The position numbers were made by a program, and so were the translations under genes. This document shows positions 128-26,545 of a stretch of 39,901 bases of DNA, piece by piece. The notes beneath the pieces are model-generated. The model searched no databases, had not been told where the DNA came from, and worked only from the letters and a program-made list of their open reading frames with translations. This stretch comes from a virus. The DNA is taken from IMG/VR virus record IMGVR_UViG_3300035183_000110, positions 1 to 39,901 of that record; one strand, given 5' to 3'. Each line of letters begins with the position of its first letter. The first letter of the stretch is position 1.

Positions 128-1051
128 ACCAAGCTCGTTGTATTGACTCAACGGCGGCTCAATGTATACGCGCTCCCGCGCCACTTCTGAAATATCCACA
201 AAGACATAGGAATATGTGTAAATGTAGTCGACTTTATCATCATCTAACCACACGACTTCTGGCTCAGAGTCTTCTAAGAGAATGGCGTCGATATTCCGCT
301 CGGCATCTTGCGTGACAGTGTTTCGACGTCGCATGTACAGAATTTTTGAAGCATGGTCTATGTAGAATTCCGCGTTGTACCTTATTTGGAACGCCTTCAG
401 CAAGTCGGCAAGGCTCATTGCAGGGTCAAGCTCAACGATTCGCCCCTCATTGCCCGTCGGGGGATTGCATGCCGCGCCCGGCCTGACGCCTCTAATTTTA
501 CGCGTTGCGTACGTGGTTAAGTCGAAAGATTGATAAATCGTTCCGCCCATCGAAAGGTTTAGCGTGTTCGTCAGAACGTTGAACACACCCGACAAAGGAA
601 TATACCCGTCCGCGCCTTCGTATTGGAACCAATACTGCTGTTGTGCAGGGTCAAACACTTTCTTTATGTCCGCCGCTCGTTCCCAAAAGATTTTTGTCTT
701 AGCAAATGCGTCAAACTCGCACCAGAGCGAGTCGAGTTTGAACGTTGTCGAGGAAAGTTTGACTTCTCCGCGCCATGCAATGCGCCACTCCAATGTATCG
801 GGATTGATAACGTAAACTCGCACTTCCCACCGTGTTGTTGCCGTACTGTTTGCAAAGATGTTCGAGAACGTGCCATCTATGTTTGAGAGTCTTAGCCTCA
901 AGTCTCCATGCTTCCGCTCGAAAGCTTTCCGCTCTAAAAGTTCCGTGACTTCAATGTGAGAGCGTGCGTCCAAGTATTTTTCGAGTCCGGTATAGACTTG
1001 GTTTGGGTCTGCCAAGTTCTCAAGGTGTAGGCCTAAGTCGTACCGTTTCAC
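1..1051 (-). CDS. Tail hub / baseplate-type protein, N-terminal 350 residues (gene crosses the contig join)
   Basis: This frame starts with GTG at 1051, overlapping the tape-measure stop in GTGA, and stays open to base 1. Joined through the 127-bp overlap it continues in frame to a TAA at 39188, giving one 545-residue protein. I see no catalytic motif. Its place directly after the tape measure, its length and the beta-rich segments fit the distal-tail/hub proteins that close the tail tube and carry the fibres. The overlapping GTGA suggests translational coupling to the tape measure. The gene call is firm; the exact hub role is inferred from gene order. It could instead be a tail-associated protein with a different role at the tip. 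Confidence 0.85.
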   Translation of the reverse strand, partial: MKRYDLGLHLENLADPNQVYTGLEKYLDARSHIEVTELLERKAFERKHGDLRLRLSNIDGTFSNIFANSTATTRWEVRVYVINPDTLEWRIAWRGEVKLSSTTFKLDSLWCEFDAFAKTKIFWERAADIKKVFDPAQQQYWFQYEGADGYIPLSGVFNVLTNTLNLSMGGTIYQSFDLTTYATRKIRGVRPGAACNPPTGNEGRIVELDPAMSLADLLKAFQIRYNAEFYIDHASKILYMRRRNTVTQDAERNIDAILLEDSEPEVVWLDDDKVDYIYTYSYVFVDISEVARERVYIEPPLSQYNELGGTQTWVVVGFNDANVPLIASRPYTTTLPNPGEGATGWWVTIR

Positions 1052-4017
1052 GAGCTTCGCTCCCGTTCAAATTCCAAAGCCTCCGGTAGTTCCTTGCGCA
1101 GGAACATCTTCCCGTCGATGAATTCAACCTCGCCGCGCAATGGCTTGGCCACTTCCTGCCGAACCATTGCCGTTTCTTCGGCTACGGCTTGCACCCTTTC
1201 GTTAAGTTCCTGTATGCGGTCAGCTATTGCATTGAGAACGTCGAGCGTCCTGTCTCCCGTTACCATGCGCCGCACCTCGGCAACGAATTCCGCTGTGAGG
1301 GGAAGAGGAGAGCCGCCTGCATTCTTGAATTCTCTGAACGTTGCAACAAGTCCGCCGATGGAACCGCCGCCCGCTCGAAATGTTAATTTCCCTTCGTTTA
1401 TTGCCTTACCAAGAAAGGCGTATCTCGGAGCCACAACCCGCTCGCCTGGAGCTAAGAGTGCCACCCCGTCCGTTCCCCGAATTCTGAACGGTACGGAGTC
1501 GCGGCCCGGAATGCCGCCGGACACTTCCATTGCGCCAACCGAATCGAGAATATCCGCATGCCGTCGTGATTGCTCGGCATTTACCACGTAGGAACCGCCT
1601 GCAATCTCACCGCCTTCCTCGAATAGTCCGAGAATCGGTAGGAACGATGCAATCACACTCAGGGGGTCACCGCCTTCAAGTCCGAGATTGGCTCGCTCCA
1701 ATGTTTGCGCTATTTGAACGGCAATTTGCAACATGCGTGCGAATTTGGAAATGCCATCATCTCCAAGTGCACTCAAAGCCGAAGCAATCCGGTTTATTCC
1801 TTCGGCTGCAATCCCGTTCAAATAGAATTGCACCTCCTCCTCTTTGCGTTTCCTGAGTTCAGCTATCACAATAGCTCGCTCTTGTTCATTCGCGAACGTT
1901 TCCGTTGCCCGCTGTTCAAGTAGCCGATACCGCTCCTCTATCCGCGCAATTGCGGCATCTTGCTCCGTGCCGATGGCAGCAAGTTTTATTTCGTTCATTG
2001 CTTCAATGCGTCGTTTCTCAACGTCCTGCAAGTTCCTTTCATGCGCAAGGCGTAGATTCGCAAGCGTCTCAATGTCTCGCTTCCGTTGTTCCTGTTGTTC
2101 TTCATCTAATGCCCCAACGAAAGCAAGTCGTTCTTGCAGTTCCCTCGTCTCATCTGCAAAACGTCGTTCTTCAAGTGCCTTCTCGCGGTCAAACCGATTG
2201 GTGATAAGGTTGACACGGGACTCCTCAAGGCGTTTGATACGTTCGAGATTTTGTTGCCGGAATTTCTCCGCTTGCGCCGTCAGTTCATCCGTTTGTGCCT
2301 TCAGAATCGAGCGTATCTTTTCCTCAATTTGCAAGCGCTCCAGTCTTGTCGGAGCGGATGCCTTTGCCGCATTCAAGCTATTGAGAAGTTCTTGCGTGGT
2401 TATCACGCCAAGCGAATGCTCAAGCTCCAGAAGCGTGAGCTTATCGCGAATGGCTTGGCTTGTGAGTTTTTGCAGGTCGAGTTGCGTTTGTAGGACTTCG
2501 GTTTCGTCTTTTTGTTTCGTGGCTATTTCAAGGCGTTTCTCCAACGCGGCCCGGACTTGTGCCTCGGTACCTTTGCCAAGTTCAAGTTTCTTTTGTGCAA
2601 TCTCCACATCCGCCTTCGCCATGTCGAGAGACGACTTTGTCCTTGCCGCTCGCTCCCGTTCGATTCGCTCACGCTCATCAATCAACGCGGTGATTTGCGT
2701 TTGCGTCAACATTTCGTCAGTCAACAAGTCGCGGTTGCGTTTCAACGATTCTGTGATGAACAACAATCGCGCCTCTTGTTTGACGTACTCATCCGAAGAA
2801 GATGCAAGACTCCGGACAATGAGCCGGCTCGTAGCCACCGACTCGCTTTCGGCGTCAACTTTTTTCTTCAGCTTGTCCAAGACAAGCCCCAGCTTGTCAC
2901 TTTGTTCCTGAATGCTTTTCAGTTGCAATTCGTTGAACGTCGTGATGGCCGTATTGTCGGTCACGGCCTGAGCGGTCAGTGCGCGGTTTGCGTCAAGCGC
3001 ATCATTATTCGCTTCAAGTGCGCCGTGTGTTGCCGAAATAGTTTGCAACAAGGAAGTGTTTGCGCTCTCGCTCTGGCGTTCAAGGTCGAGCTTCTTCGCG
3101 AGTTGTTCGTTCAACGCGCCGATTGTTTTTACCGCCTGCTCAGGTGCTTCGGCCTTGAACGTTGCGTTGAGCGTCAAAATCTTTTCAGGATTCACCGATG
3201 CAAGCGCTCTGTCAAGGTCGGATTTCAGCCCTTCGACGTCAACGAGTAGCTTGACGCGTTGCTCCTCGTTCAATCGTTCCAACAGGTTGTCGAGTTTTGC
3301 AAGTCCCTCCGTCACCGCCGCGTTCGCCTCGTCATTCGTTTCCCGAAGCATAGAGATGAAGAACACACCCGCCGCAACGGCAATACTAATCGGGGTAGCC
3401 AACGACCCCAAAGTCGCGGCAAGCCGGCTCATGGCTCCGGTCGTTCGATTTGCAAGGTTGCCGATACTGAACAAAAGAAACTCCACCCCTTGCATGGTAC
3501 CGATGCCTTGCAGCATCGCCACGTTCAAGTTGTTCGTTTCCCCAGCCTGCTGCGCGGTTCCTGCCGCAAGAAACGACATGCCGCTCGCGAGCGCCATGAT
3601 ACTTTGCCGTCCCTCTCCTATTATTCGGTCTTGTAGCCGTTGCTCCCTGAAAAATTGTCGGTACCTCTGCGAGAGATTATCAACACTTTCCCCGTGCGCC
3701 GCAAACGTTTGCCCCGTTGCGTCGAATTCCTTTCGCACGTCGGCAAGCCCTTGACGTACGCCTTGCCTGAATCCTTCACCGAACGATTGACTCGCCTTTG
3801 TTGCCGTGAGGCCAAAGTCTTGCAGTTTTGCCGTGCCTGCCTCCAGCTTCCGTTCGATGTCCGCCATGTCCGGAGCTTTCAGCTTGACGTTTGTCAAGTC
3901 CCCGATTTTCTTCGTTGAGACTTGTGCCGTTTGCACCGCCTGCGAGAATGCCGCGCGAAACTCCTTGTCTTCAAGTAGAAGTCGGAAAATCGCTTGCCCA
4001 AAGGTATTGTCAGCCAC
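1048..4017 (-). CDS. Tape measure protein
   Basis: A 989-residue protein that sets tail length and is ejected with the DNA. It has long charged, Glu/Arg/Gln-rich helices with coiled-coil character from about residue 230 to 720, a hydrophobic stretch at about 200-224, and a Gly-rich C-terminal part with the GRDSVPF...LLAPGERVV pattern common near tape-measure C-termini. The start is GTG at 4017, with AAGGG upstream; the GT frameshift product ends 8 bp inside this gene. It is followed by the hub gene with a GTGA overlap. From the usual ~0.15 nm per residue, the tail would be roughly 150 nm long (inference). No lysozyme or peptidase motif was recognised inside it. Confidence 0.93.
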   Translation of the reverse strand: MADNTFGQAIFRLLLEDKEFRAAFSQAVQTAQVSTKKIGDLTNVKLKAPDMADIERKLEAGTAKLQDFGLTATKASQSFGEGFRQGVRQGLADVRKEFDATGQTFAAHGESVDNLSQRYRQFFREQRLQDRIIGEGRQSIMALASGMSFLAAGTAQQAGETNNLNVAMLQGIGTMQGVEFLLFSIGNLANRTTGAMSRLAATLGSLATPISIAVAAGVFFISMLRETNDEANAAVTEGLAKLDNLLERLNEEQRVKLLVDVEGLKSDLDRALASVNPEKILTLNATFKAEAPEQAVKTIGALNEQLAKKLDLERQSESANTSLLQTISATHGALEANNDALDANRALTAQAVTDNTAITTFNELQLKSIQEQSDKLGLVLDKLKKKVDAESESVATSRLIVRSLASSSDEYVKQEARLLFITESLKRNRDLLTDEMLTQTQITALIDERERIERERAARTKSSLDMAKADVEIAQKKLELGKGTEAQVRAALEKRLEIATKQKDETEVLQTQLDLQKLTSQAIRDKLTLLELEHSLGVITTQELLNSLNAAKASAPTRLERLQIEEKIRSILKAQTDELTAQAEKFRQQNLERIKRLEESRVNLITNRFDREKALEERRFADETRELQERLAFVGALDEEQQEQRKRDIETLANLRLAHERNLQDVEKRRIEAMNEIKLAAIGTEQDAAIARIEERYRLLEQRATETFANEQERAIVIAELRKRKEEEVQFYLNGIAAEGINRIASALSALGDDGISKFARMLQIAVQIAQTLERANLGLEGGDPLSVIASFLPILGLFEEGGEIAGGSYVVNAEQSRRHADILDSVGAMEVSGGIPGRDSVPFRIRGTDGVALLAPGERVVAPRYAFLGKAINEGKLTFRAGGGSIGGLVATFREFKNAGGSPLPLTAEFVAEVRRMVTGDRTLDVLNAIADRIQELNERVQAVAEETAMVRQEVAKPLRGEVEFIDGKMFLRKELPEALEFERERSS

Positions 4018-6832: not shown

Positions 6833-7938
6833 AGAGTTACCCTCCGCCTCGGATGAAAAAGAAAATCCCGCCCATCCAGAGTAGTGTCCACGTCCACGTC
6901 AACGATTGCCGCCGCCACCTGCGTGGTAGGCTCCTCGGAACCGAACACCATTTGCGTGTACCGCTTCAAATAGTTGCGTGCAAGTTCCGAGTATTTCCGG
7001 CTTTTGTCTTGGTAGTTCACCACGTCGGCGTTTATCGTTGCGTCGCTCGACGGAGCGTACGCAGCCGCGAGAGTAAGGCAGCAATTCGCCGCCGCCAAGT
7101 TTGTGATGTTCGCGAAGTGTTCCGCAGTGTCCGGAAAGTTTTGATACTTGCCACTTACTGCCTTCTCGAAAATTCTCGGCTGGTAGGTGAATTCGACGTT
7201 GATATATTCAGAGCTTCGAGCTATCCTCCCAACAAGTTGCAATACAAGATTCGAGCCGTCTTGCGCCGTTCCATCATCGACAATTTGCCACTCGGTCGGT
7301 TCGAGCGTGAAAAGACTTCCAGTCCCCCAAGGTGCGTGCACACTCACAACACGCGAAAAGCCGATTTCGTACAAGTCACCTAAGAGTGTGAGCGGATAGA
7401 TTGACGTGTCGTTGCCCTGCAATCGTTTGAACACCTTGAAAGGTTTTTCTTTGCCGTATTGTGTGACGGCAGCATGTAAAGCGCTAACGATTGCCTCGTG
7501 TGATAGCTTGCCCGCATCATCCGATACCTTTAGCTTCACCTCGTCAACGTAATTGAGAAACGTCCGACCTGTTGGCGTTGCTTTATATCGGCTCAAGTTT
7601 TCAACGTCAACGAGGAACACCTCCTTGCCCGTTTTGCCGACTGCGTACGTCCACTCGACAATCAGTACATGCGGCTCTACGCCGATGATAGTTCCGTCGA
7701 TTATCACGTTGTCGTTTGCCGAAAGGTGGAGCTTGAAATTTCCCGCCGCGTCCACCTCTCCCCCGTTGGCATTCTTAATCGTTTGAGCGTTCCGCCCGTT
7801 GATAATTGCGCCGGAAGTCTTGTCGTATAGCGTCGCCGTGAGCGTGTCAACATCGGCAAGTCCGAGGGGTGCGCCGTTTTCATCCTTCAGCACTCCGGTC
7901 ACAAGTGCCGACGACTTTTCCTTTACGTTCATTCGCAT
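6829..7938 (-). CDS. Neck/structural protein with N-terminal Ig-like part and C-terminal connector-like helices
   Basis: A 369-residue protein one base after the preceding stop; ATG at 7938 or 7932. The first ~120 residues (VTGVLKDENGAPLG..., ending VFLVDVENL) resemble the beta-sandwich N-terminal domains of phage proteins describing attached polymers or baseplate parts. The rest contains helices such as YSELARNYLKRYTQMVF, typical of head-tail connector proteins. Position between the capsid-side decoration genes and the gp10-like gene supports a neck or adaptor role. This is inference from layout; a fused decoration/connector protein is also possible. Confidence 0.7.
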   Translation of the reverse strand: MRMNVKEKSSALVTGVLKDENGAPLGLADVDTLTATLYDKTSGAIINGRNAQTIKNANGGEVDAAGNFKLHLSANDNVIIDGTIIGVEPHVLIVEWTYAVGKTGKEVFLVDVENLSRYKATPTGRTFLNYVDEVKLKVSDDAGKLSHEAIVSALHAAVTQYGKEKPFKVFKRLQGNDTSIYPLTLLGDLYEIGFSRVVSVHAPWGTGSLFTLEPTEWQIVDDGTAQDGSNLVLQLVGRIARSSEYINVEFTYQPRIFEKAVSGKYQNFPDTAEHFANITNLAAANCCLTLAAAYAPSSDATINADVVNYQDKSRKYSELARNYLKRYTQMVFGSEEPTTQVAAAIVDVDVDTTLDGRDFLFHPRRRVTL

Positions 7939-7939
7939 G

Positions 7940-10309
7940 TCAGTTCATCACTTTCGTGTTTGAGAGTTTCGATTGACGCATTCGCCCGTGCATTCCACTT
8001 TCAGAGAACGCCGCGCCGCTCAAGATTCCCGTTCGTTCAAGCGCTTCAAGTTCCGACTTCGTGATGTTCCCGTTTCTGAGTTTTGCCTGCAAGATTTTTT
8101 CATCTTGCAGTGTCACAAGAGAAAGCGAGATAACGCCCAACGATACACTTTTCCCGTCAAAAATGAAGTGCCCAAGTCCAGCCTGCAAAAGCCGAGCAAC
8201 GAACAACTCTGCATCGTGTTCCGACAAGTCGAATGTCCCAAGCCCCGGCACGATAACGCGATTTGCGCGCAGGAATGCGCCCAATCCAGCAAGCGTCATG
8301 GTTCCCGTGCCCGTCAGAAGTTGGCGCCCAGCAATAAGGCTCAACGGTACACCTGCAAGGTCAAACTCACCTCGAACGGTAGGCATACGCCTTGCAACGT
8401 ACAGGCCGCCGTTTGGTGCAGTCAGAACAAAACTGCCTGCGAGAGCGTCGAGCTTCAGCCCTTGTCTGCCGATGAACAACGAAGCGTCGTATGCCGTCAG
8501 TAGGAACGTCCCCGATACCGCTCGGCACAGTCGGTCAGCCTGTACGTTGACGGATTGACCCGTCAGCACATAGCTTCCGACAAGCGCCTCGACTCTCCGC
8601 CGTGCCATCACCTCTGCCGATTGCCCTGTCAGTGTGTAGCTCCCCGCTTGTGTACCAAGCGAACGGGAAGCGCTCAGGCCTGCCGCCATGCCTGTGATGA
8701 TATAGCTCCCCACTTGCGTGCCAAGCAAACGGACAAGACTCAAGCCTGCCGCCGTGCCTGCGAGCGTGTACGCCTCCGCCCCGGCACCAAGCCTGCGGAA
8801 CGCCCTCAATCCTGCCGTTTTCCCTTCCAACGTATAGCTTCGCACCTGCGCACCAAGCGAACGGGAAGCGGTTAGACCTACCGTCAGGCCTGTCAGGGTA
8901 TAGGTTACGGAGATAGCTTGAACATAACGCGAAACTCTTAACCCCAAGCCTTGCCCTGTCAGTGTGTAGCTTCCGACCTGCGCACCAAGACGTCGGGAAG
9001 CACTTAGACCTGTACTTTTCCCCGTTACGGCATAGGAACCACTCCCCGCCGTGAGTGTATAGCCCGCCGTCGGCGGTTTGAGTTCAAAGCCGATGGCCAC
9101 ACACGCGCTAAAGTCAAAGGTCGCGTCGATTGTTTGGTCAGCGGACTTCGTTTCAATGCGGCAGCGGATTTTATCCCATGAGGAACCTACTGCGAGCGCC
9201 GTAACTTGCGCAAAACCCGAACCAAGTTCCGGCATCCATTTAGTATTGAACGCCCCAATCACCGTCCCCGTCGGTTCGGTCGGCAGGGTGACGGTCAACG
9301 AGCCATTGCCAGAAGTTACGGCAGTGGCAAATTGCTTTATAGGGTCACCCTTGTCAACGTTGTCAATCTCTAACGCTATGCCTGCCGCACGATAGGGTGC
9401 CGTGCCAAAGGAAACAGTCACGACCCCCGTCGATGGCGTCCCTGTCCCCTTGAAAAGTGCAACGGCCTGCTGGTCGGTCTCCGTTTCAATCGACTCCGCT
9501 ACTTTTGTCCATGTCAAACCGCAGCCACTGAGTGCCACGTTCGGCGTCGCTCCGGCATGGAACCAAAACACGACAACAAGCTGCGCTTTCTGAGCGTCGG
9601 GAGTGCGTGACGGAAAGGTGTAGCTTGATTGTGACGCGTCCGTTTCAAACTTGCTTGTCACCCAAGCATGAGGAACAACCTGAGAACGCAGCTCGATTTG
9701 CCACATAACCCAAGCCGCGCTCGCTCCAGTGACGGAAATGTTTCCAGATGAAGTCCCCGCCGCCGACATTGACTTTGACCCGTTAGCGTTCGACGTCGCT
9801 TCGGTGTCAGAACCATTATCAACTTCTTCAGTCCAACCCGTCGGCGTTGCAAGTTCAGTGTTGGCCGCCGCCGCGTCAATATAAATCACGAGCGAATTGT
9901 CAGCGGTCGTGACTATTCCATTGCAGCTATGCGTCGAACTTGTACCCGCGTTGACGTTCACCTCGCCGCCGAGTAAATCCGTTGGGTCAAATGTTCCGCT
10001 ATATTGAATCACTTGAGCAAAACAGGCTACGGATGAAGTGCCAACCGTGATAGCCGGAGCGGTCTCCGACCCGTCCACTCCGCCCTGCGTGCGTCGATAC
10101 ACCCAGAGCGAAACAGTCCAAGCCGTGCCGCTATTTTGTTGCGCAAATTTTGTCCAACCTGCCGTCGCGCAGGTATGAGCAAAGTTATTCTTTGAGCCGG
10201 CTACGGCAATAAGTAGGTTTCCGCTTGTGCGTGACGCTGGCAAAGCCGGAGTAAGTGACGTTGCTCCGCTGCTGTTTGCGCGCGTCCCCGCGTTAACGTA
10301 GCTCGGCAT
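7940..10309 (-). CDS. Large structural protein with C-terminal tandem beta repeats
   Basis: A 789-residue protein whose ATG directly abuts the previous stop (TAAATG). The N-terminal ~420 residues hold two related beta-sandwich-like parts (motifs such as SGNLLIAVAGSKN, QLVVVFWFHAG). From about residue 425 to 710 there are roughly a dozen copies of a ~24-residue unit with the pattern GSYTLTGxxxGLxxxRxLxA, diverging toward the end. Such repeats are common in phage virion surface proteins. The last ~50 residues are non-repetitive and helical. It follows the decoration protein and probably decorates the capsid or neck. The repeat number may vary by recombination. Confidence 0.8.
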   Translation of the reverse strand: MPSYVNAGTRANSSGATSLTPALPASRTSGNLLIAVAGSKNNFAHTCATAGWTKFAQQNSGTAWTVSLWVYRRTQGGVDGSETAPAITVGTSSVACFAQVIQYSGTFDPTDLLGGEVNVNAGTSSTHSCNGIVTTADNSLVIYIDAAAANTELATPTGWTEEVDNGSDTEATSNANGSKSMSAAGTSSGNISVTGASAAWVMWQIELRSQVVPHAWVTSKFETDASQSSYTFPSRTPDAQKAQLVVVFWFHAGATPNVALSGCGLTWTKVAESIETETDQQAVALFKGTGTPSTGVVTVSFGTAPYRAAGIALEIDNVDKGDPIKQFATAVTSGNGSLTVTLPTEPTGTVIGAFNTKWMPELGSGFAQVTALAVGSSWDKIRCRIETKSADQTIDATFDFSACVAIGFELKPPTAGYTLTAGSGSYAVTGKSTGLSASRRLGAQVGSYTLTGQGLGLRVSRYVQAISVTYTLTGLTVGLTASRSLGAQVRSYTLEGKTAGLRAFRRLGAGAEAYTLAGTAAGLSLVRLLGTQVGSYIITGMAAGLSASRSLGTQAGSYTLTGQSAEVMARRRVEALVGSYVLTGQSVNVQADRLCRAVSGTFLLTAYDASLFIGRQGLKLDALAGSFVLTAPNGGLYVARRMPTVRGEFDLAGVPLSLIAGRQLLTGTGTMTLAGLGAFLRANRVIVPGLGTFDLSEHDAELFVARLLQAGLGHFIFDGKSVSLGVISLSLVTLQDEKILQAKLRNGNITKSELEALERTGILSGAAFSESGMHGRMRQSKLSNTKVMN

Positions 10310-10735
10310 TTACTGTATCGTGAAGACTCCGTTTGTGCCGTCAAAGTCTATCGTGAACGTCTCGCCATCGTTCAAGGTGATTGCGCTTCCGTAGTCGTAC
10401 CATCCGATGAGCTCCTTGTTTGCCGCTGTATCGTTGTAGAGTATAACATAACGGAACGCCCCGATGGAACCACCCGATGCCGTGATTGTCACGTCCGTGA
10501 GTACGAGCTTGTAGATTCCACCCGTTTGTGCGGAAGACACTTGTGCAGTTTGCACTCCGCCCGCAGGGTAGCCATGTCCTGCGGCTATTTCCGTTATGTC
10601 AGCCTTCACGGTGTTCGTTGCGCTCGGTGCGGTGTTCGACAACATCACCTTGAGCGTGTCCGCCTCAAGGTTGTGTTTTTTTTCCGCTACGGCTTCAACG
10701 AACGAATTGAACTTATTGAAAGATGCAGATGGCAT
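10310..10735 (-). CDS. Virion structural / capsid-decoration-type protein
   Basis: A 141-residue protein of a family I recognise from many siphophages, usually just after the major capsid gene. Its marks are an N-terminal FNKFNSFVEAVAEKKHNL helix, then LKVMLSNTAPSATN, an ITEIAAGHGY segment and a C-terminal beta domain ending ETFTIDFDGTNGVFTI. It lies 92 bp after the capsid gene, across a hairpin, and abuts the 789-residue gene. A decoration or head-stabilising role is likely, though some members are annotated only as hypothetical structural proteins. Confidence 0.75.
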   Translation of the reverse strand: MPSASFNKFNSFVEAVAEKKHNLEADTLKVMLSNTAPSATNTVKADITEIAAGHGYPAGGVQTAQVSSAQTGGIYKLVLTDVTITASGGSIGAFRYVILYNDTAANKELIGWYDYGSAITLNDGETFTIDFDGTNGVFTIQ

Positions 10736-10783
10736 TTGCGCGTGCCCTTCTCAGTGTGATGGAATGAAAGAAAGGAACAAAGT

Positions 10784-10812
10784 GCGGCAACCGTTTTCAG
10801 TCAGGTTGCCGC
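10784..10812 (-). terminator. Hairpin after the capsid gene (partial terminator)
   Basis: Perfect 9-bp inverted repeat GCGGCAACC / GGTTGCCGC with an 11-nt loop, 16 bp after the capsid stop. On the minus strand it is followed by ACTTTGTTCC, which is only weakly U-rich. It is probably a leaky terminator or mRNA stabiliser that sets high capsid and lower downstream expression. On the plus strand it is followed by TTTTGTCTTG. Confidence 0.5.
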
Positions 10813-10827
10813 TTTTGTCTTGTCGCT

Positions 10828-13065
10828 TTAGGCAACGATGGAACCGTCGAACGCTCGGAAGTCGATGATATTGCCGCCGTACTCGTGACGGATTTTGTAC
10901 GTCAGTTTGTCGTTTGTAAACCACGAACCGACGTTGGCAACGTCGCTAACGAAGAGCTCGGGGGTTTCCTGTCCGTTGATAAAGCCGATTTCGATGCCGA
11001 CAACATCCTCCGGTCGTGCCACCAACACCCAGTCATTGCTGTCAGTCCAATAGTCAACGACTATCGGAGCCATGTTCTGCTTTTGCAAGAACGTGGGCAC
11101 GTTGTTGTATTGTCCCGCCGCCGGAGTCAGCAACGTGTCAGCTACCGCCTCAAGGTCAGAAGGTACCACCAAGTAGCCGGCACGGATGCCAAGCCGCTTG
11201 TTGTTGTCCTTCATCGTTTGCTTTTTCATGCGCAACCGTGCCGCAGCCAATGAAGTTGCATCGAGCGCCGCAGTACCCATATTCGCATGCGTAGCGTGAT
11301 ACAGTGCGAGCGTGTCGTATATGGTCGGATTGACGGCAGGCCTGATGAAGTCGAATACAAACTCGTGCAGAGTTTGCGCCGCCGCTCGCGCAAGGCGTGT
11401 CGGAATCTTCTGTATGGCGCCCACGTCGTCATTCAAGATGAGCTCGCGCGTAATATCTTCCGTCCCGCCACGAGTTGCCGGCACGTAGGTCGCCTCCTCA
11501 TCGGTCGGACTCGTCAAAGATTGATAAGGCTGCGCCTCCGGCCTGATGGGTAAATTCGGATAGCCGCCATATCGAATCCGGTGTTGCGTTTTGAAGTCTC
11601 GCAGTGGTACCACGTCAACGAACGTCCGCCATGCGTCAAGCCCCATTTGGGTATAATCCCGAACGAGCCTCTTGTTCATGGCGTCGGCCACGACCTGCGC
11701 CCAATCCCCCGTCGCGAGAGATTCGGTCATGCGTGTCGATTTCGCTTTCAGCCCCGTCACGTCAACGTCACCTGTGAATTGAATATATGCCTCCTTGAAC
11801 GAACGGAACGGCGGAACGCCATGCAAAAGCGTTTTGCGCTCCTCAGCGGTCAGCGGTGCAATGCGCGAACCTTCCAAGAAAAAGCCATCAATTCCAAGTT
11901 TGATTTTGTCGATTTCGTCATGCCCCATGCGAATGTCAAGCCCGCCGGAGTTCGGAATCGTTGCAACGAATTTCGAGTAAGTCTCCCTCACCCGCTTGAT
12001 AGCGGCATCGAGTTCCGACTCTTCAAAGACTCGAAGTGTATTGCCTTCTTTGAATTGCGCACGCACCTCTTCCTGCAAAGGAATCGGCAAGCGACTTTCC
12101 TGCAATTTTGCATTCAGCAATGCCGCGCAGGCTTGCCGCTTCATTGCCGCAAGCTCGGCATTCATTCTGTCCAACGATTCACGAAACTTTGAGTCATTCG
12201 GTTCCGGAGTCGGCGCCGGATTGGGCTTCGATTTGCCAAGTAGTGCGTCCACTCTCCGCAATGCCGCGTCTAAAGCGTCCTGCGTTCCGGCGGTTAACGC
12301 GGCACGGAATTCTTTGAGCTTCGTGTCAACAAGGTCTTCCGTCAGTTGCGCTCCATCGGGGAGATTCAAACGCGGTTGTGCCTTGTCCGCTTCGAGCAAA
12401 TGAGTGAAAAGCTCATTTTCGTCAATTGCGCTAAGGTCGAGTTTCTTGCTCTCAAGGAATTGCGGATACAGAAGCAAGAAAAGCGTTGCGAGTTTTGTTT
12501 TCAACATGGTGTCTCCTGTTTGTGTGTGTTGAGATGCAGCCATTTTTACGATACGTCCGCCCGCCGCTCCACGTTCCACAATATCAACGTCGAATCGGTC
12601 AAAGCGTTCAGCTATCGGAAGCGTTTCACCCTCATAGCTTCCTTGATACGCCTTTCCTATTGCGTCAATTGATAGCTCGTACGGCAACGGCAAGTTGTTT
12701 TGAAACGTATGCAATAAGTTCTCTCTAAGCCATGCGCCCGACGGCAAGATATTGAGCGTGGCTTTCAACTCTGTTTCCGTCACGACGGGGTCTGTCAGAA
12801 CGCCAACAATATCACGCGTCACCTTTTCGTTCGGGTTCCGTTTGTGCCCTCCAAGGTCACTCGTAGAGTTTGCGTATACGCGCGCTCCGTTGATTTTGTC
12901 CATCGACTTGAGCGCCGCTTCCTTCGTATAGACAAAATGCGGTGCAACCTGCGATTTGCCGAAGCGAAAAACAACGACCTCCCACTTCCAGCCTGGCTCC
13001 TTCCCTTCTTGAACGATTGGGCTCAGAGAAGACGCCGCCAAGAATTGTATTGCTTTCGTCTTCAT
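10828..13065 (-). CDS. Fused prohead protease, scaffold and major capsid protein
   Basis: A 745-residue protein starting with ATG at 13065, two bases after the preceding gene. Residues ~30-180 look like a prohead protease, with a conserved His (H74, in GGHKRNP) and a serine in an ELSIDAIGK context (S132). Residues ~190-400 are charged, helical and Pro-rich (KSKPNPAPTPEPND), as in an internal scaffold. Residues ~400-745 resemble the Mu gpT-like branch of HK97-fold capsid proteins, with ALYHATHANMG, ARLRMKKQTMKDN, YLVVPSDLE and a VGIEIGFINGQETPELF strand near the end. No separate protease, scaffold or capsid gene exists elsewhere, which supports a natural fusion that self-cleaves during assembly. 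Confidence 0.85.
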   Translation of the reverse strand: MKTKAIQFLAASSLSPIVQEGKEPGWKWEVVVFRFGKSQVAPHFVYTKEAALKSMDKINGARVYANSTSDLGGHKRNPNEKVTRDIVGVLTDPVVTETELKATLNILPSGAWLRENLLHTFQNNLPLPYELSIDAIGKAYQGSYEGETLPIAERFDRFDVDIVERGAAGGRIVKMAASQHTQTGDTMLKTKLATLFLLLYPQFLESKKLDLSAIDENELFTHLLEADKAQPRLNLPDGAQLTEDLVDTKLKEFRAALTAGTQDALDAALRRVDALLGKSKPNPAPTPEPNDSKFRESLDRMNAELAAMKRQACAALLNAKLQESRLPIPLQEEVRAQFKEGNTLRVFEESELDAAIKRVRETYSKFVATIPNSGGLDIRMGHDEIDKIKLGIDGFFLEGSRIAPLTAEERKTLLHGVPPFRSFKEAYIQFTGDVDVTGLKAKSTRMTESLATGDWAQVVADAMNKRLVRDYTQMGLDAWRTFVDVVPLRDFKTQHRIRYGGYPNLPIRPEAQPYQSLTSPTDEEATYVPATRGGTEDITRELILNDDVGAIQKIPTRLARAAAQTLHEFVFDFIRPAVNPTIYDTLALYHATHANMGTAALDATSLAAARLRMKKQTMKDNNKRLGIRAGYLVVPSDLEAVADTLLTPAAGQYNNVPTFLQKQNMAPIVVDYWTDSNDWVLVARPEDVVGIEIGFINGQETPELFVSDVANVGSWFTNDKLTYKIRHEYGGNIIDFRAFDGSIVA

Positions 13066-15815: not shown

Positions 15816-17378
15816 TCACCATGTTCGTTTCCGTTGCGCCTTGTACGCGTCCGCCATGTCAAAGCGTTCTGCATTCATCTTTGTCTCCGACACGGCAACA
15901 CCTACGCCGCCGCGTGTGTTTCTTACCCAATTCCAATACACTGCCGCGTCCCCTTTGTTCGGTGAGCGTCCAAGCCGTTTCTTGAGTTCTTCTTTCTTCT
16001 CGATAGTGATTTTGCCGTTCCTTACAAACCACTGAGGCGTTACAAGGTCGGCATACAGTTCTTCATCATCCGGCAAACATATTCGCCCCGCCTGCAAGTC
16101 CATGCGCATTTGCCACCACATTTGCGCTCGCAGGTTTGCATAGCGTTCTTCTTGCATATTGCCGTGTTCATCGTACGTCGGCTCGGCAGGTTCCGCCGAT
16201 AAAAGATTCGTGACAAAGCTCCCGTCTTCCTTGAGAGCGTTGACGGTTCCTGCTCCGACTCCGATGCCATCTATGCCGACTCGTGTCGGGTCTATTCTCT
16301 CGGCAATGATGCGCGCGTGTATCTTGTGTCCGAGTTGGTTAGCGTCAGGACATTGGAAGTCCTCAACGCGTTCAAGGACTCTGCCCGTACCTTCTGCAAT
16401 AGCCGCCTTGTCTCCGGACTCCGAATTCGCCACGTCAACACCTAACGCCTTGCCGCCTTCGTACATTTCCTCAGTACGAACGCGATCCCTCGCCTCATAA
16501 CACCACTCAAGTCGTATGAGCGAATTGACCGACTGCTCCGGTGAAATGCCTCGCGCTCGTGACATATACAGGGGATTCGTCTCGTCTCGGTATCGTTCTT
16601 TGAGCGTTTGAAGCCCAAGACGTGATTGCGCGCCTGCCACGAATTCCGGATTGTCAAGCACGACGTTCGGATGGTCAAAGCCCGAAATGCGTACATGTTC
16701 GACACGCGGCAATTTGCAAAACTCGTGGAGTTGGTCTTTTGCATGGTCGGGGTTGCCAAGCGCAAGGATAAGGTTGTGTGGAGCGGTACACGTGTTTTGG
16801 AATGCGCGCATTACGGCAGGTGCAATGCCAGGGGTCTCCTCGCAAATGATTAGCATATCCTTCGCGTGAAAGCCCTGAGCTTTCGTTGCCGATGCCTCAG
16901 CTTCTTCCGATTTCACTCCTGCCACAAAGCCCACGATTATCCATTGCTCCTTCATCGGAATCATTCGCAGCTTCAGGTTTGAAAGGTCGCCGATGCCTAA
17001 CTTCGGATGCAGTCTCCCTATTTCCTTCCAAACATGGAGCGAAAGCTGCTCAGCTTTCGGCGCAATGGTCACTACAACCGAATCGGGGAAGCACTCCCAA
17101 AACCACAAAGCGATGCACGCGGCAAGGAACGTCTTGCCGCAACCGACTCCACTCTCAACACCTACCCATTTGCCTGCCGCTATTGCGGCAAGAATTTTTT
17201 TCAGTGGGTTCGGGGTGCCGTCCCATTTATGAGTTCGATATTCCTTCAACATCGCCCAATCAATTGTCTCCGGCCTCACGCCCAAGCGCTCTGTGATATA
17301 CCGGAACGGGTCACGTTGCCATTCCGCTCGCCTTGCTAACGCGAGAAGTTCCTCAACGTCAGTCGCCCTCGGAACCAT
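15816..17378 (-). CDS. terL: Terminase large subunit
   Basis: A 520-residue packaging ATPase/nuclease. Walker A is GVGCGKT (residues ~77-83) and Walker B plus catalytic acid LIICEE (~176-181). The C-terminal RNase H-like nuclease shows GVDVANSESGD (D315) and RVGIDGIGVG (D370), with a late DAAVYWNW motif. I took ATG 17378, which overlaps the small terminase by 20 bp; an alternative ATG at 17453 would add 25 basic residues entirely inside the small-terminase frame. Neither start has a clear Shine-Dalgarno. The gene order small terminase, large terminase, portal is canonical. Confidence 0.92.
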   Translation of the reverse strand: MVPRATDVEELLALARRAEWQRDPFRYITERLGVRPETIDWAMLKEYRTHKWDGTPNPLKKILAAIAAGKWVGVESGVGCGKTFLAACIALWFWECFPDSVVVTIAPKAEQLSLHVWKEIGRLHPKLGIGDLSNLKLRMIPMKEQWIIVGFVAGVKSEEAEASATKAQGFHAKDMLIICEETPGIAPAVMRAFQNTCTAPHNLILALGNPDHAKDQLHEFCKLPRVEHVRISGFDHPNVVLDNPEFVAGAQSRLGLQTLKERYRDETNPLYMSRARGISPEQSVNSLIRLEWCYEARDRVRTEEMYEGGKALGVDVANSESGDKAAIAEGTGRVLERVEDFQCPDANQLGHKIHARIIAERIDPTRVGIDGIGVGAGTVNALKEDGSFVTNLLSAEPAEPTYDEHGNMQEERYANLRAQMWWQMRMDLQAGRICLPDDEELYADLVTPQWFVRNGKITIEKKEELKKRLGRSPNKGDAAVYWNWVRNTRGGVGVAVSETKMNAERFDMADAYKAQRKRTW

Positions 17379-17787
17379 TTGCCGCAACCGTGACGCCAAG
17401 GCGTTCGAGGCGTTCGGCAAGCTCTTCGTACGGGTCTTTTGTCGTGTGCTCATGTTTGACGGTGCCGGAGTGTTCGATTTTCGTTTTGTCAGTCCAGCCC
17501 AATTGTTTGAGTGAGAAGATTGCCATGCTTGCGTTGAATTTTCCACGAAGCGCTCCCATCTCCAGAATGTACTCCTTCTTGGCCATTAGCCTTTTTATAG
17601 CGTCGGAAAATTCGGGGTGAGCGTATAGGTCTTGACGGTTTACGCGCTCGCGAAAAGCAAACTCCGCCAGAACGGGAAGCGTTGTCGTTTCGATGTAGTC
17701 TTCGAGCTTAGCCAAAAGCTCCGCCTTTCGTTCGGGTGTCCAGACACGAACGGGTGCGCCGCGTTTTTTTGGTGGGTGTTCCTGCAT
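17359..17787 (-). CDS. terS: Terminase small subunit
   Basis: A 142-residue DNA-recognition subunit of the packaging motor. It has the family layout: a helical N-terminal part with a helix-turn-helix-like DYIETTTLPVLAEFAFRE and VNRQDLYAHPEF, then AIKRLMAKKEYILEMGALRG and the typical NASMAIFSLKQLGWTDKT, then a charged tail. It starts at ATG 17787 with no evident Shine-Dalgarno after a 126-bp gap holding a terminator, so this is the first gene of the late block. It overlaps terL by 20 bp. A pac/cos site is expected near here but I cannot point to one. Confidence 0.87.
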   Translation of the reverse strand: MQEHPPKKRGAPVRVWTPERKAELLAKLEDYIETTTLPVLAEFAFRERVNRQDLYAHPEFSDAIKRLMAKKEYILEMGALRGKFNASMAIFSLKQLGWTDKTKIEHSGTVKHEHTTKDPYEELAERLERLGVTVAANGSEGD

Positions 17788-17861: not shown

Positions 17862-17890
17862 AAAAAAAAGCCGCTCATTCCTGAGCGGCT
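17862..17890 (-). terminator. Intrinsic terminator between accessory and late blocks
   Basis: Perfect 9-bp stem AGCCGCTCA / TGAGCGGCT with a 4-nt loop, followed on the minus strand by a run of Us (complement of A's 17862-17869). It lies 24 bp after the DUF1874 gene stop and separates the accessory transcripts from the terminase genes. Confidence 0.88.
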
Positions 17891-17913
17891 TCTCACGCCA
17901 TCGACTCATACGT

Positions 17914-18249
17914 TCATTCGTCTCGCTTCAATAGTCCGATTTCGATGTGTCCAGCAATAACGGCTTCGCCAATGCGTCCCTTGTCCATTGGGTTAATGCG
18001 AGGAGAGCCAGGAGCAAAAGCTAAGCGAATAACAAGCGCCTCGTCCCCGACCTGCATTTTGACCGTGCGCCTGTCGATTGTGACAGGCCTTCCGAGTATT
18101 TTCGCGGCTACGGCTGCCGTTTCGGGATAACCAATAGTTGACACGAATTCTCCATCTTCCGCCCAAGCATGCGCCTCGTCAGGTGTCAAAAGAGAATAGG
18201 TGTACCGGCCTGGCGCCGTCACTACCGCAGAATTCAAAATATATCTCAT
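17914..18249 (-). CDS. DUF1874 / STIV B116-like protein (AcrIII-1 ring-nuclease family)
   Basis: A 111-residue protein starting MRYILNSAVV with a GAGGGA ribosome binding site; ATG 18249. It aligns along its length with the B116/SIRV1 gp29 family: an N-terminal strand with LNSA, a FVSTIGYPETAA turn and helix (35-46), DRRTVKMQVGDEALVIRL (59-76) and a C-terminal GLLKR strand. Archaeal viral members (AcrIII-1) cleave cyclic tetra-adenylate and so block type III CRISPR signalling. The catalytic His of that enzyme lies in an IGH motif; here the matching residue is Tyr41, so binding without the same chemistry, or another ligand, is possible. It is the last gene before the terminator and late block. 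Confidence 0.8.
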   Translation of the reverse strand: MRYILNSAVVTAPGRYTYSLLTPDEAHAWAEDGEFVSTIGYPETAAVAAKILGRPVTIDRRTVKMQVGDEALVIRLAFAPGSPRINPMDKGRIGEAVIAGHIEIGLLKRDE

Positions 18250-18266: not shown

Positions 18267-18503
18267 TTACTTTTTCTTTTTGTCGGGAATACACACCGCG
18301 AATGCGTAATTGTACCGGCCTTGCCCGTAGCCGATTTGGATTCTCGTTTGCTTGTTGACGTACCGGATGCTTCCGACTCCGCCGCTTCCCATCGGTAGCC
18401 ACTCGACTTTGTATCCCATTTTTTCGAGCTCTTTCTTGCGGTCGGCCACCTTCCAGTGTGAATTCACGACTTTCATTATTCGGTTCAGGTCTCGCTTTGT
18501 CAT
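18267..18503 (-). CDS. Small basic protein, unknown
   Basis: A 78-residue protein starting MTKRDLNRIMKVV, with GAGGT upstream. It is basic overall, with a Gly-rich middle (PMGSGGVGSIRYV), a YGQGRYNYAFAV strand and a Lys-rich end. It lies 17 bp before the DUF1874 gene, so the two are probably cotranscribed. No domain recognised; small basic proteins in such a place may bind nucleic acid (weak inference). Confidence 0.75.
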   Translation of the reverse strand: MTKRDLNRIMKVVNSHWKVADRKKELEKMGYKVEWLPMGSGGVGSIRYVNKQTRIQIGYGQGRYNYAFAVCIPDKKKK

Positions 18504-18556
18504 GTTGTACCTCGTTTTGTTTTGTGAGTGTGTAGTTTTCTCGGCACTGTTCACGT

Positions 18557-25801: not shown

Positions 25802-26545
25802 TTAGAACGGCAGTTTGATAGAACGTTGGTACTCGTGTGAGGGTTTGCCGAAGTGGCTAAAGCCTCGGCCTCTCACTACATTTCCGAACATGCGTTTAAG
25901 AAACAAAAAGTCGTTCCGCTCGGTTTCTTTGTTCCGGAACTCCGCTTGTCCGCCAATGTTTTTGAACGTTGCAAGTTGCACCATGCCAAAACGCGTGTCG
26001 AAAAAAGCATAACGGTGATAAAACGCATTTATGAGCGAACCGAAGTAATCCTCTACGGCAATGGCTTCCTCATGGAAAAAGATATTTGAACCTTTCAACA
26101 GGCCGAACGCACACCCGTTGCAATAGCCCGTGAGCCGAAATGGCCTGTAAGGTTTGAAGCATCGCGCGTCGCTTACTGTCCCGAAGCCGAATAAGTACGC
26201 ACCAAGTTCTTTCGCCATGTTCGCAGTTACTTGGATTATGTCGTATGCAAGCGCAGGCTCGACAACGGTCGGCAAAAGCGAGTATGGCGGAATGTACAAG
26301 CGTTGCATGGCTTGTATATCATCGTCGAGCATCATTACGTCGCCAAATTTTCGATATATCCAATTCCGTTTTGCGGCCAAGCCCCTCACGGTGTCGGGGT
26401 GCGTCACAATTTCGATGTTCGGGTTGTGCTGTTTGTACTCTTTCAATTGCGACTCCGGCACGCAGAGAATGCAATTTGCAACAGCGTCCTTTGTTCTCAC
26501 CCTCGCTGCGCGTTTGTGTGACGGTATCACGACTTTGACTTCCAT
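25802..26545 (-). CDS. TET-associated-type (TAGT-like) glycosyltransferase
   Basis: A 247-residue GT-A-like protein with AAAGGGG before ATG 26545. It opens VKVVIPSHKRAARVRT, continues ILCVPESQLKEYKQHNPNIE and GLAAKRNWIYRKFGDV, and has MLDDDI (residues 72-77), the expected metal/nucleotide-sugar DxD-type motif. This layout matches the phage glycosyltransferases found with TET/JBP oxygenases, which sugar-modify hydroxymethylated bases. No oxygenase or hydroxymethyl-nucleotide enzyme is visible in this genome, so the acceptor is unknown. It follows the ParB-like gene by 17 bp, suggesting a common job. Confidence 0.68.
   Translation of the reverse strand: MEVKVVIPSHKRAARVRTKDAVANCILCVPESQLKEYKQHNPNIEIVTHPDTVRGLAAKRNWIYRKFGDVMMLDDDIQAMQRLYIPPYSLLPTVVEPALAYDIIQVTANMAKELGAYLFGFGTVSDARCFKPYRPFRLTGYCNGCAFGLLKGSNIFFHEEAIAVEDYFGSLINAFYHRYAFFDTRFGMVQLATFKNIGGQAEFRNKETERNDFLFLKRMFGNVVRGRGFSHFGKPSHEYQRSIKLPF

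Follow-up and report, generated by a model that had tools for sequence, protein, structure and literature searches.

A conserved tyrosine-type branch of the AcrIII-1/Crn2 (DUF1874) fold in a phage accessory region

In AcrIII-1 ring nucleases, a conserved His acts as the general acid for the leaving group (PMC7371418, PMC12830947). Replacement of this residue in gp29 (H47A) leaves a protein that binds cA4 with a KD of ~25 nM (PMC7213978), the corresponding H495A variant of the Csx1-Crn2 fusion does not degrade cA4 (PMC7293037), and PDB entry 8y7g is this Csx1-Crn2 H495A mutant with cA4 bound. A mobile loop of AcrIII-1 moves upon binding of cA4 (PMC10018336), and the ring nuclease of Thermoanaerobacterium phage THSA-485A is active in vivo (PMC7371418). 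Within Csx15, a single ring nuclease family holds both sponges and slow nucleases (PMC13148439). The protein described here shares the AcrIII-1 fold and carries Tyr at the position of the catalytic His.

The gene and its family

The window (the whole stretch of DNA analyzed, 39,901 nucleotides of IMG/VR record IMGVR_UViG_3300035183_000110) encodes a terminase large subunit, which shows it to be a tailed-phage genome. The features in and around the gene, all on the minus strand, are:

17914–18249, minus strand: Tyr-type DUF1874 (PF08960) protein of 111 aa, identified by PF08960, PHROG 5063, and an AlphaFold2 model with Foldseek
18127–18129, minus strand: codon of Tyr41 (TAT), at the AcrIII-1 catalytic His position by alignment (Tyr in 27/27 members of the Tyr branch, His in 38/38 His members)
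17980–17982, minus strand: codon of Lys90 (AAG), invariant in the Tyr clade (27/27, against 0/38 His members)
18070–18072, minus strand: Arg60, invariant in both branches (27/27 and 38/38)
17865–17894, minus strand: hairpin and T run resembling an intrinsic terminator, just 3′ of the gene; the number of such sites does not exceed that in shuffled sequence
18267–18554, minus strand: gene directly upstream, separated by a 17-nt gap, no family match
17359–17787, minus strand: terminase small subunit, next gene downstream (phrog_309, E 4e-10)
15816–17546, minus strand: terminase large subunit (phrog_2, E 9e-25)

The product begins MRYILNSAVVTAPGRYTYSLLTPDEAHAWAEDGEFVSTIGYPETAAVAAKILG, with an ATG start at 18249 and a stop codon that ends at 17914. 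A longer in-frame ORF reaching 18636 (240 aa) lacks support, and 18249 is taken as the natural start because all relatives begin MRYILNSAV. The initial annotation had assigned the protein to DUF1874 with Tyr in place of the AcrIII-1 catalytic His, and both parts stood: the PF08960 profile comparison that it proposed confirmed the family (STIV_B116-like, 45.9 bits against a curated cut-off of 26, E 6.5e-12), PHROG 5063 also matched (E 2.5e-7), and the AFV3-109 PDB chain matched (E 3.3e-5) with IGY at residues 39–41 aligned on the IGH of AFV3-109 and other His members. The alignment to the family from end to end, claimed in the same annotation, broke down beyond residue 77, as the PF08960 match covers residues 3–77 only, strong homology is confined to residues 1–77, and the C-terminal third is remodelled or divergent. 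The PADLOC model named Csx16 (PDLC01147) scored 50.6 bits on the window protein and 97–118 bits on three His-type DUF1874 proteins and, judged by these far better His-type scores, serves here as a DUF1874 model labelled Csx16. As a side observation, PADLOC may report relatives of AcrIII-1/Crn2 as Csx16, since this model matches DUF1874 proteins of that fold.

AlphaFold2 monomer models of the window protein (pLDDT 86.9) and of a relative from a CRISPR locus (L021, pLDDT 90.0) both matched, among PDB entries at E ≤ 0.001, DUF1874 structures only (2j6b, 6scf, 2j85, 2x4i and the Csx1-Crn2 entries 8y7f and 8y7g), each with a Foldseek probability of 1.00. Among the matches in BFVD were STIV B116 and a Thermoanaerobacterium phage THSA-485A protein. 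The low-confidence stretch in the window model, residues 81–94, would fit the mobile loop of AcrIII-1.

The gene was also described as the last of the accessory region, in agreement with the hairpin at 17894–17865, followed by the terminase genes; the hairpin itself is no more than suggestive of a terminator. Among five viral contigs with terminases 47–57% identical to that of the window (four short fragments and one of 42 kb), PF08960 was absent, which points to an accessory gene. Clues to the host of the window phage come from distant terminase matches only (~25% identity to actinophages), and tRNA genes were absent from the window. Elsewhere in the window, a TET-associated glycosyltransferase (25802–26545, minus strand; PF20691 TAGT, E 5.8e-15) suggests that hypermodified bases may be present in the phage DNA.

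The Tyr clade and its conserved site

Tyr members were gathered by scanning viral contigs and species genomes, for a total of 28 with the window protein included. It should be noted that most Tyr loci were retrieved by patterns that can include IGY, such that the tallies do not represent the true Tyr:His ratio. Tyr members (L043 and L104), always with Lys, also came from N-terminal patterns and from profile searches that covered several phyla and returned mainly His members; no other Tyr outside the clade was found this way. The sources of the Tyr members are phage contigs and MAGs titled Nitrososphaeria, Desulfobacterales, Caldiserica, Latescibacterota, UBP16, Chloroflexi, Desulfobacteraceae, Nitrospira and Syntrophomonadaceae. 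At the site itself, 69 aligned members carry Tyr (27), His (38), Arg (3) or Asp (1). Beyond the alignment, L104 brings the Tyr members to 28 and five additional His members that were read bring the His members to 43; Tyr and Lys90 occur together in 28/28 Tyr-type members, while either residue occurs in 0/43 His-type relatives. A third kind of DUF1874 protein without the His was observed as closely similar copies in the phylum of genome G001 (L056, L057 and L058), where ER(QDTA) replaces GH and the NR and GD motifs are also missing.

In a tree built without the Tyr column, the 27 Tyr rows fall on one side of a branch with support of 97/88, nested within the His members; next to this branch lies a His member from an archaeal phylum (L049), followed by one from Vibrio (L083). 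The Tyr codons (TAT 14, TAC 13) and the His codons (CAT 20, CAC 18) are a single transition apart, yet no reversal was seen, and dN/dS was 0.04–0.07 in three close pairs of Tyr members; the Tyr branch is under purifying selection. This proximity of the codons is what would favor a sequencing error or a decayed, inactive copy of AcrIII-1 as the source of the Tyr, an explanation that is refuted by the 27 additional Tyr members from other assemblies, their monophyly and the low dN/dS.

The residues invariant in 27/27 Tyr rows include N6, S7, T11, G14, Y18, W29, S37, G40, Y41, T44, R60, D69, R75, K90, E103 and G105. Six of these (N6, S37, G40, T44, R60 and D69) are common to the Tyr rows and most His members, Y41 and K90 occur in 0/38 aligned His members, and W29, R75, E103 and G105 differ in kind between the branches. 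The loop that in His members mostly reads RLPEG or RLEEG is SPRINPMDKG in the window protein and mostly R-x-[DN]-P-x-x-K-G or R-x-x-D-P-x-x-K-G in the Tyr members. Compared with the features of AcrIII-1/Crn2, the window protein is virus-encoded, on a phage record with a terminase, and has the Arg of the NR motif (R60), while the catalytic His and the Glu of RLxEG are absent; the roles of AcrIII-1 residues apart from the His are presumed here, in part from later papers. Taken together, the Tyr, the invariant Lys and the loss of RLxEG indicate a site that is rebuilt rather than broken, and the Tyr marks a whole clade that is widespread and tightly conserved.

Genomic context of the relatives

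The one Tyr member found in a CRISPR locus (L021, on a contig titled as a Nitrospira japonica MAG, for which the binning is uncertain and the Cas10 match of the genome is sub-threshold) leads an operon that spans 7764–11751. The Tyr gene (7764–8087) is followed after 4 nt by a CARF-sigma54-activator gene (CARF-AAA-HTH) and then by genes for a Card1-like CARF-PDDEXK protein and a further CARF protein, all on the same strand. The opposite strand carries Cas1, Cas2 and Cas6, a Csx1/Csm6-type gene lies farther away, and upstream is a protein of 1000 aa without a family match (370–3372). The nearest named His relative, a YddF-family protein on a Vibrio aerogenes plasmid (L083), opens a type III-B cmr/cas10 operon, and cas1-cas2 run divergently from it. 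These two contexts link the lineage that surrounds the Tyr clade to type III signalling. When Nitrospirota were searched for more Tyr members linked to CRISPR, the other matches were His-type. Strong Cas10 matches (≥115 bits) occur in 4/10 MAGs with Tyr members, but were set aside as evidence, as they lack comparison with a background rate and E. coli gives matches to the model too.

Among the phage contigs, one of 66 kb (L001) encodes a Tyr copy (49866–50090, plus strand) and a His copy with RLPEG (56146–56409, minus strand). This phage, with its Tyr and His DUF1874 genes ~6 kb apart, is also represented by locus L023 (IMGVR_UViG_3300031812_000001; 9861–10196, plus strand, in the coordinates of that locus). 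No neighbor gene that could serve as a clue to function is widely shared among the Tyr phage loci. Two of the loci carry features of separate interest: a fused beta/beta-prime RNA polymerase of 2138 aa (L018, 8399–14815) just downstream of the Tyr-type gene, in the vicinity of a ThiF-like gene and of a weak match of the desampylase type, and, on another contig with a Tyr-type gene, an intein that interrupts the terminase large subunit (L020, 12316–14592, minus strand).

Function and comparison with known systems

Because loss of the His stops cleavage but spares binding and the shared residues are kept, a Tyr protein should be able to hold cyclic oligoadenylate without rapid cleavage of the AcrIII-1 type. 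The window protein is probably a phage accessory protein directed against type III CRISPR, which captures cyclic oligoadenylate or removes it without the His. It belongs to a Tyr subfamily that stands apart within the AcrIII-1/Crn2 (DUF1874) fold, and as a dimer it would most likely bind the type III cyclic oligoadenylate in the same pocket as AcrIII-1, with cA4 as the first candidate ligand. The catalytic elements would have been swapped, His47 for Tyr41 and the RLxEG motif of the mobile loop for a loop with the invariant Lys90, and the free signal would be lowered either by holding, as in a sponge, or by slow or altered cleavage via the Tyr and Lys, which would shield the phage from CARF effectors. 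This anti-type III role is favored by the fold, the family, the clade, the co-conservation of Tyr and Lys and the purifying selection, as well as by the one relative in a CRISPR operon, the type III-B operon of the nearest named His relative, the presence of both types in a single phage, the cA4 binding of gp29 H47A and the precedent of Csx15; the retained Asn6, Ser37, Gly40, Arg60 and Asp69 also speak for it. It is weakened by the single CRISPR locus with a Tyr member, which lies in a MAG of uncertain binning with a sub-threshold Cas10 match. Sponging is opposed by the large amount of signal that type III systems produce, which may render sponges ineffective (PMC13148439), and an invariant Tyr and Lys exceed what a mere sponge needs. 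The initial annotation had offered adaptation to another chemistry or ligand and a sponge as its two proposals; both remain live and are inseparable by sequence.

The strictness of the Tyr and the added invariant Lys suggest selection beyond passive binding, and hence lead to rivals with a new chemistry or a new ligand. A ring nuclease that still cleaves cyclic oligoadenylate by using Tyr41, Lys90 or both as general acid or leaving-group stabilizer is a rather unlikely outcome: joint invariance of two residues absent from the His members would be expected if a catalytic pair had been rebuilt and not if the site were dead, a Tyr member takes the position of Crn2 in one CRISPR operon (L021), and different residues serve other ring nuclease folds, but Tyr, with a pKa of about 10, makes a poor general acid and the RLxEG Glu has likewise disappeared or been swapped for Asp/Asn. 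It is unlikely that the pocket has instead been re-specialized to bind or degrade another defense nucleotide (cA3, cA5, cA6, SAM-AMP, or a CBASS or Thoeris signal). His and Tyr copies in one phage would fit two non-redundant ligands, and the positions at which the two branches carry residues of different kinds (W29, R75, E103 and G105) would suit such a change, but the Tyr member of L021 adjoins CARF-PDDEXK (Card1/Can2-like) and Csx1/Csm6-type effectors, which are mostly users of cA4. A departure from nucleotide signalling altogether, for example to a DNA-binding or host-takeover protein, is quite improbable; some records carry an older annotation of viral DUF1874 members as 'DNA binding protein' and the Tyr phage loci lack a conserved neighbor that links the gene to defense, but the residues shared with AcrIII-1 are retained and a Tyr member is found in a CRISPR operon. 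Looking beyond this protein, we tentatively consider it possible that the Tyr clade is a separate viral anti-defense class, in which the Tyr/Lys site cleaves or captures a cyclic nucleotide that the His types do not handle, and if so a phage may keep both types for that reason.

The Tyr branch is a real, conserved and apparently undescribed variant of the AcrIII-1/Crn2 fold, and no description of it was found in the portions of the DUF1874 literature available. A 2025 survey of ring nucleases removed matches without the absolutely conserved residues as false positives (PMC12409355), a filter that would drop the Tyr clade, which may consequently have been overlooked. Should the Tyr proteins bind without AcrIII-1 chemistry, they would provide a sponge version of the main type III anti-CRISPR of phages; should they cleave, a thoroughly studied fold would have acquired a new active site. 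The phage with both Tyr and His copies offers a natural comparison.

Several described systems provide points of reference. The phage sponges Tad1, Tad2 and Acb2 resemble the Tyr branch in a possible mode of sequestration, and neither their sequence nor their fold matched it in the searches run. Csx15 is a precedent for a family with members that sequester or slowly cleave cA4, but has a CARF-type fold, binds as filaments and is not homologous to the Tyr branch by the searches run. The paralogues with E-R for G-H (L056–L058) belong to the same fold family and also lack the His, but form a separate branch without the Tyr/Lys pair and with the NR and GD motifs lost. Crn2 and the Csx1-Crn2 fusion (8y7f and 8y7g; the Vibrio aerogenes cmr operon of L083) share the fold, and the Tyr member of L021 is similarly placed, leading an operon that runs divergently from cas1, whereas Crn2 members retain the His (H495 in Marinitoga). 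With AcrIII-1 itself (SIRV1 gp29, 6scf; AFV3-109, 2j6b; STIV B116, 2j85), the points in common are the fold (Foldseek probability 1.00, TM 0.7–0.8), membership in PF08960, the form of a small single-domain viral protein, and N6, S37-x-x-G40, R60 and the GD motif. Unlike AcrIII-1, the Tyr branch has an invariant Tyr for the catalytic His, a Lys loop for RLxEG, a conserved E-x-G in the last strand, and the additional W29 and R75.
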